Position numbers and translations under genes: made by a program | Notes under the pieces: generated by a model | The model's input: only the letters and a program-made list of their open reading frames with translations | What the model was told of the DNA's origin: nothing | Database searches by the model: none | Part shown: positions 47,537 through 47,708 of the stretch, piece after piece | Position numbering within the stretch: position 1 is the first letter of the stretch | How the letters are laid out: each line of letters starts with the position of its first letter | Assembly: GCA_016931895.1 (NCBI GenBank) | Contig: JAFGDY010000007.1 | Coordinates: 1 to 49,503 of the forward strand | Direction of reading: 5' to 3' | Length of the DNA: 49,503 bases | Source of the DNA: Anaerolineae bacterium | Lineage (GTDB): Bacteria > Chloroflexota > Anaerolineae > 4572-78 > J111

Positions 47537-47553
47537 AGCTCAAGATGAAATAT

Positions 47554-47682
47554 GACTCTCCTGAAAAAAGGGTGAAAAGTCGGACTTTTGTGCATTACCA
47601 TACTACATATAGTAGGTAAAGGTCGATTATATGCCTAGATATAGTGGCTGCTTCTAAAAGTCCGACTTTTTTCAGTGGAGTC
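47554..47682. mobile_element. MITE-like element (129 bp) with inverted ends and 6-bp target duplication
   Basis: The left end GACTCTCCTGAAAAAAG and the reversed right end GACTCCACTGAAAAAAG agree at 15 of 17 positions. Further in, AAAAGTCGGACTTTT (47575-47589) and its exact reverse complement AAAAGTCCGACTTTT (47656-47670) continue the inverted repeat. AAATAT flanks both sides directly (47548-47553 and 47683-47688). It encodes no protein. The centre contains a hairpin TACTA-CATA-TAGTA. Confidence 0.75.
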
Positions 47683-47708
47683 AAATATGAGATAAGGAGT
47701 CAAGATTT

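Follow-up and report, generated by a model that had tools for sequence, protein, structure and literature searches.

The Correia elements of Neisseria (CREE/NEMIS) are, like the element described here, short MITEs with inverted ends, and in the accessible text of PMC10969869 and PMC2229807 one of them has an IHF site with an effect on how the mtrCDE operon is transcribed. The same portions of these two sources describe prokaryotic MITEs as carriers of promoters, IHF sites, RNA structures and a methyltransferase site. The account of prokaryotic MITEs in PMC10969869, as far as its available text extends, does not mention NrdR, and a literature search of limited reach returned nothing on NrdR sites in transposable elements. 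NrdR is a repressor that as a rule governs the genes for DNA precursors. Its operators are described in the accessible sections of PMC12051234 and PMC9110341 as tandem palindromic boxes separated by a gap of 14–17 bp, the arrangement that we find inside the present MITE. The former source reports NrdR binding at box gaps of 14–17 bp, and also of 24–27 bp, the shorter range corresponding to 30–33 bp from start to start for 16-bp boxes; according to the available part of the latter, S. coelicolor NrdR in its dATP/ATP-loaded form occupies two boxes separated by roughly three turns of the helix, and the DNA is bent by nearly 90 degrees at each box to which NrdR binds. The present element differs from the Correia elements in its ends and in its 6-bp duplication, and, whereas IHF is a general DNA-bending protein, it carries a spaced operator pair predicted for a specific metabolic repressor. 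What sets its pair apart from the described NrdR operators is that it belongs to a mobile element, which lies between two transporter genes.

The window analyzed here, a stretch of 49,503 nucleotides from an Anaerolineae bacterium, contains a 129-bp element at 47554–47682 (plus strand), flanked by copies of AAATAT at 47548–47553 and 47683–47688. These coordinates are exactly those of the MITE with intact 6-bp target duplication proposed in the initial annotation, and its delimitation is based on a second copy with a duplication of its own (see below). Upstream lies the gene of an AI-2E family transporter (permease; PF01594; 46490–47536) and downstream that of a CPA2-type cation:proton antiporter (PF00999; 47709–48938), both on the plus strand, and there is no ORF of at least 60 aa inside the 129 bp, in agreement with the description of a non-coding element between two transporter genes. 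The terminal inverted repeats, identified by the family end pattern GACTCNNCTGAAAAAA, are 17 bp long and read GACTCTCCTGAAAAAAG on the left (47554–47570, plus strand) and GACTCCACTGAAAAAAG on the right (47666–47682, minus-strand reading). Extended inverted arms at 47550–47570 and 47666–47686 match at 86% and overlap the AAATAT duplications by 4 bases. The inner 15-bp arms are likewise present as claimed: the subterminal sequences AAAAGTCGGACTTTT (47575–47589) and AAAAGTCCGACTTTT (47656–47670) are perfectly inverted with respect to one another, and each is a palindrome by itself. The arm motif was found two times in the window when up to two mismatches were allowed (0.11 occurrences expected), and with at most one mismatch AAAAGTCGGACTTTT is limited, in the source genome, to the two copies of the MITE.

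The search for further copies that the initial annotation had recommended yielded one more full copy in the source assembly (6.06 Mb, 320 contigs), at C83:2409–2537 (G000). It is identical to the window copy at 122 of 129 bases, with all seven differences being transitions, and it is flanked by a 6-bp duplication of its own, AATCAT, so the element is no product of chance. This second copy lies between an asparagine-synthase gene, whose stop codon is completed by the first two bases of the element, and a GDSL-lipase gene, whose start codon falls within the right AATCAT duplication; we infer that the empty site was a stop/start overlap of these two genes. At both sites the insertion is between co-directional genes. 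The whole 129-bp element was found only in the source genome among 100 searched (its own and 99 others). One order-level relative contains a 32-base match (88%) to a MITE end, while the 11 genus and family relatives gave no match, which, together with the intact duplication, is compatible with the earlier view of a recent insertion. Plasmid records showed no DNA match to the element at E 1e-5.

Related elements were sought in GTDB representative contigs with the end pattern GACTCNNCTGAAAAAA followed by its inverse 93–153 bases on, which returned 32 elements, similar in size to the window MITE, in 15 other genomes. According to their record titles, these comprise ten Chloroflexota, three Spirochaetes, one Planctomycetota and one Thorarchaeota, several of them from shared sample series (Zod, CSMAG) in which binning error is possible, above all for the Thorarchaeota archaeon. 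The exact end pattern has 178 matches in 17 genomes, namely the 15 chosen as element holders, the source genome and the genus relative, and seven of the 17 hold 9 to 31 ends each; the reversed pattern gave 0 matches. Both flanks were available for 31 elements, of which 15 have an exact 6-bp duplication, five an exact 7-bp duplication and 11 neither, and controls at three offsets gave none (0/32 at each). A is the first base in every one of the 15 exact 6-bp duplications and in those of both source-genome copies; in a looser set of elements, two exact 6-bp repeats (TTGAAT) begin with T. We also fetched 60 regions around family ends among the matches listed, nearly all of them without a listed exact partner, and found a partner end, degenerate or exact, 110–360 bp away in 31. 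Viral contigs contained no pair of family ends. The interiors of the family elements fall into several unrelated types, and this difference among members implies that the cargo is interchangeable.

Two observations on these interiors deserve mention. In a Caldilineaceae MAG, a 179-bp inverted-repeat element with ends GGTAGGACTGCACGATAGCGTGAT is nested in two family MITE copies (L097 422–600 and L098 392–570), at different places within the MITE and with 8-bp duplications, AGGTATGT and GGGGGTGA. Furthermore, a repeat of the CCACAGAGACACAGAG / CCACAAAGGACACAAAG type forms the interior of many family MITEs (L037, L038, L041, L045, L047, L048, L053, L056, L057, L058, L063 and L064); we take this repeat to be widely dispersed in environmental bacteria, and transposition between family ends might account for its dispersal.

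A candidate for the enzyme that moves the family, P0001, was found by looking between family ends: in G114:C563 (L157), a 1854-bp element contains a single 583-aa ORF with PF13751 and PF01609 domains above cut-off. P0001 shares with the IS1182 family both PF13751 and the best model, NF033551 (IS1182 transposase; E 1.6e-42), and differs from it in its score of 146 bits, below the curated NCBIfam cut-off of 270, for which reason we call it IS1182-like only. It is the sole transposase copy with both ends, the right one having two mismatches, and there is no target duplication in its flanks. Matches to P0001 occur in 8 of 23 chosen genomes. Of the two closest others, the homologue in G100 (63% over residues 4–249) starts about 94 bp behind a family end, that in G102 (70% over residues 1–76) about 90 bp behind an end with two mismatches, and a third, in G105 (62% over 26 residues), lies at a contig edge. 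At E 0.001, neither the source genome nor the genus relative has a homologue; the transposase gene with the same ends that the initial annotation suggested looking for thus has candidates in other genomes and none in the organism itself. Taken together, the two copies with different duplications, the family with 6-bp duplications elsewhere and the candidate transposase with the same ends strongly support the window element as a mobile MITE with a history of movement, and its probable mover is an IS1182-like transposase with ends of this type.

Two further candidates for this role were discarded. A pair of ends 2.86 kb apart in an Anaerolineae MAG (G105:C338; L095 7–2867) was considered as an autonomous element and ruled out, as it has the appearance of MITE halves around two host genes and is without a target duplication. 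Transposases of haloarchaeal plasmids were set aside as family movers because the likely ends of the three examined, judged from their inverted repeats, are different. These relatives of P0001 (L229–L231) share 34–37% identity with it, and their likely ends resemble GGGCACCGTAGAAAGGG.

Nothing in the MITE interior is more specific than the two paired NrdR-type boxes that lie between its subterminal palindromes. Box 1, ATACTACATATAGTAG, occupies 47600–47615 (plus strand; core CTACATATAG at 47603–47612; matrix score 21.2) and box 2, TGCCTAGATATAGTGG, 47632–47647 (plus strand; core CTAGATATAG at 47635–47644; matrix score 13.6), and the antiporter gene starts about 65 bp downstream of box 2. The spacing of 32 bp from start to start corresponds to a gap of 16 bp between two palindromic 16-bp boxes, which falls within the 14–17 bp of NrdR operators. 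Scores were obtained with a matrix built from 28 boxes in 14 non-MITE pairs (seven from the source genome, six from the genus relative and one from G005; training range 10.3–24.3); the matrix depends in part on the MITE, in which the pattern was first noticed, whereas the spacing result and the nrdR leader (see below) are independent of it. The MITE pair, with a total of 34.8, outscores all others in the window (at most −4.7 outside the element) and in 30 random windows (at most 10.1), and this total was matched by 0 of 20,000 random interiors (best 22.8). In copy 2 each box has one substitution (scores 13.3 and 6.5), indicating that the boxes were without protection after insertion. The source genome encodes NrdR itself, with Zn-ribbon and ATP-cone domains (TIGR00244, 166.6 bits; cut-off 124.65).

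Pairs of the exact motif CWANATATWG at gaps of 6–36 (31 allowed gaps) were then counted in the source genome, one genus relative and four family relatives. The six genomes contain 39 distinct pairs, including those of the MITE and of the deoxynucleoside kinase (dNK) leader, and 38 of them are spaced at 30–33 bp (4, 19, 13 and 2 pairs, respectively), with a single pair at 18; the reversed control gave 0 in all six. Within a wider set of 11 genomes, box pairs were found in ten, the exception being SpSt-1165, the bearer of the L043 MITE discussed below. Gene context was read for nine of the ten pairs of the source genome at 30–33 bp and for all six of the genus relative. Both genomes have such a pair ahead of nrdR, of gyrB and of a gene for a sortase; dnaE is preceded by one in one of the two, and dNK in the source genome. 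The dnaA and ftsQ/ftsA regions also contain pairs, and the neighbours of others are an ORF that no NCBIfam model matches and genes for a ClC channel, a LysM protein and a PAS/response-regulator protein. At L032 680–4949 (minus strand), nrdR is followed by a reductase gene that by eye resembles nrdJ with an intein, and the nrdR leader has two perfect NrdR boxes at a spacing of 30 bp. At L031 4793–5000, behind dnaA, NrdR-type boxes are found amid DnaA-box-like TTATCCACA motifs, which suggests contact of NrdR with the origin region.

The leader of the dNK gene (PF01712) additionally contains the fifth exact family end of the source genome. Between the start of the second box and this perfect right end there are 48 bp, just as in copy 1, and across 396 genomes of the class a box beside a right end was found in the source genome only, in copy 1 and in the dNK leader, with a strict pattern that misses copy 2. 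Relatives of dNK were identified in 13 of 15 genomes. The best box pair in their leaders, allowing either strand for each core, has 0 mismatches in the source genome, G005 and G006; two in G003, G004 and G009; three in the genus relative, where one box is perfect; four in G002; and five to seven in five order-level genomes. The background at up to three mismatches is 0 of 46 400-bp stretches behind dNK genes and 1 of 123 stretches in the window, this one being the MITE itself. Measured against this background, the pairs in the relatives' leaders make NrdR control of dNK look older than the transposon end in the leader. The leaders of the source organism and of the genus relative can be aligned, and the alignment takes in CTTGACATT-N12-AGTAGAGT, plausibly a promoter with its −10 part inside the transposon end.

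We also considered the dNK leader as a third full copy of the MITE, given a TAACCA repeat around a 162-bp stretch that ends in the perfect right end. The left end of this stretch is poor, TAACCA starts with T, unlike the 15 A-initial family duplications, and the stretch aligns with the native leader of the genus relative (score 52; best of 300 shuffles 36). The leader was consequently rejected as a plain insertion; the MITE may have drawn its operator from a dNK leader, or the leader its end from a MITE. Descent of the MITE interior from the dNK leader was likewise not upheld: stripped of its ends, copy 1 scores 42 against this leader, 40 when compared with that of nrdR and 35 with that of LysM, and the similarity may be due to nothing but the boxes. 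Separately, an imperfect NrdR-type pair (two mismatches) is present in L218 (G015:C345; reverse complement, about 391–432), approximately 1.1 kb before the dNK gene and just before an adjacent second dNK-like gene.

Among the 32 family elements of the other genomes, only L043 of SpSt-1165 has a box (score 21.3; next best −2.1). When we scanned 144 distinct 180-bp stretches inward from exact ends, counting the two ends of an element separately, those that stood out belong to the window element, to L135 of G108 (best single box 10.1, pair 15.0) and to the L043 element and its sister L100 (18.2). L043 and L135, both from Chloroflexota genomes, have weaker pairs than the window element: L043 has a heavily degraded first box and a pair total of only 10.1, and neither box of L135 is perfect (one and two mismatches). 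In a common orientation, L043 is 130 bp long, with its first box at 51 and the start of its second 49 bases from the right end; the corresponding values are 129 bp, 49 and 50 for L135 and 129 bp, 50 and 48 for the window element. Their box cores agree at 6–8 of 10 bases and the flanking interior on either side at 5–7 of 17. Direct alignment of the cores of these elements is marginal (6 to 36 of 1000 shuffles equally good), and shared descent of the three is possible. The SpSt-1165 MITE (L043 1–260) sits among further NrdR-like boxes, ACTACATATAGTG, CTGTATATAG and CTACATATTG, the latter two being 30 bp apart, and a nearby gene resembles a glycosyltransferase.

On the strength of these sequence comparisons, we consider it likely that the window element is a non-autonomous MITE that depends for its movement on an IS1182-like DDE transposase acting in trans and delivers a complete NrdR operator. 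We infer that such a transposase would recognize the GACTCNNCTGAAAAAAG-type ends and insert the MITE at mostly AT-rich targets, duplicating mostly 6 bp, and that every jump would leave behind a complete operator, with two boxes at the right helical spacing. NrdR loaded with dATP/ATP would then bind the pair, and under plentiful dATP its presence on the MITE would hinder transcription into the antiporter gene. A simple consensus scan found no sigma-70-like promoter in or beside the MITE, so the repressor may have nothing local to repress. A bolder proposal, that an old Chloroflexota MITE subfamily of about 130 bp constitutes a mobile NrdR operator that takes dATP-sensing control to unrelated genes and is linked by descent to the dNK leader, we regard as tentative and rather doubtful.

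It is quite possible, if in our judgment short of an even chance, that this is instead an ordinary MITE whose boxes are inert cargo, the remains of an NrdR leader, perhaps the one of dNK, that was trapped once between the ends and is now decaying. The loss of one base per box in copy 2 and the interchangeable cargo of the family would fit such a history, as would the right end in the dNK leader at the distance seen in copy 1; on the other hand, the elements of near-equal length in two other genomes have boxes at almost identical places while the interior compared on either side agrees at only 5–7 of 17 bases. This nearly fixed and nearly central position in 129–130-bp elements of three genomes could also mean that the boxes serve the transposon itself, with NrdR acting as a host factor, or as a brake, through which transposition would depend on replication or on the supply of dNTPs, a role to which the bend of close to 90 degrees per box (accessible part of PMC9110341) would lend itself. 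As the autonomous P0001 copy has no box pair (best −14.6) and 31 of 32 family elements are without a box, we hold this to be improbable.

An action of the MITE as RNA, whether as terminator, processing site or stabilizing hairpin, is marginally easier to entertain but still unlikely. The initial annotation had envisaged a strong hairpin that ends or protects transcripts, and the fold is indeed very stable on both strands (z = −6.95 on the plus and −6.69 on the minus strand), with both insertions between co-directional genes. However, folding of this kind is expected of any element with long inverted repeats, Rfam at gathering score matched nothing on the MITE (the sole match in the window being a tRNA), and no terminator-like site was found, so that the proposed ending of transcripts finds no support; the strongly folded RNA might still serve in protection or processing. 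Least probable, in our view, is that the pair is the site of a regulator other than NrdR. Many boxes do differ from the nrdR leader at core position 4 (or its mirror), with C or G in place of T/A, and several pairs lie by genes without an evident link to DNA synthesis, those for the sortase, LysM, ClC channel and PAS/response-regulator proteins. Yet a single pair can combine the two kinds of box, as before gyrB in the same-genus genome, both have the 30–33 bp spacing, and both also occur before nrdR, gyrB, dnaE and dNK.

Our analysis outlines a MITE family in Chloroflexota and Spirochaete MAGs, together with its probable transposase, and a candidate NrdR regulon in the source organism and its relatives that reaches beyond the reductase genes to gyrB, dnaE, dNK and the dnaA and ftsQ/ftsA regions. 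If a MITE does carry, in correct phase, the operator of a specific metabolic repressor, the regulon would gain genes in one step, and if the reading as a mobile operator is true, membership in the NrdR regulon would be handed out, or taken up, by transposition.
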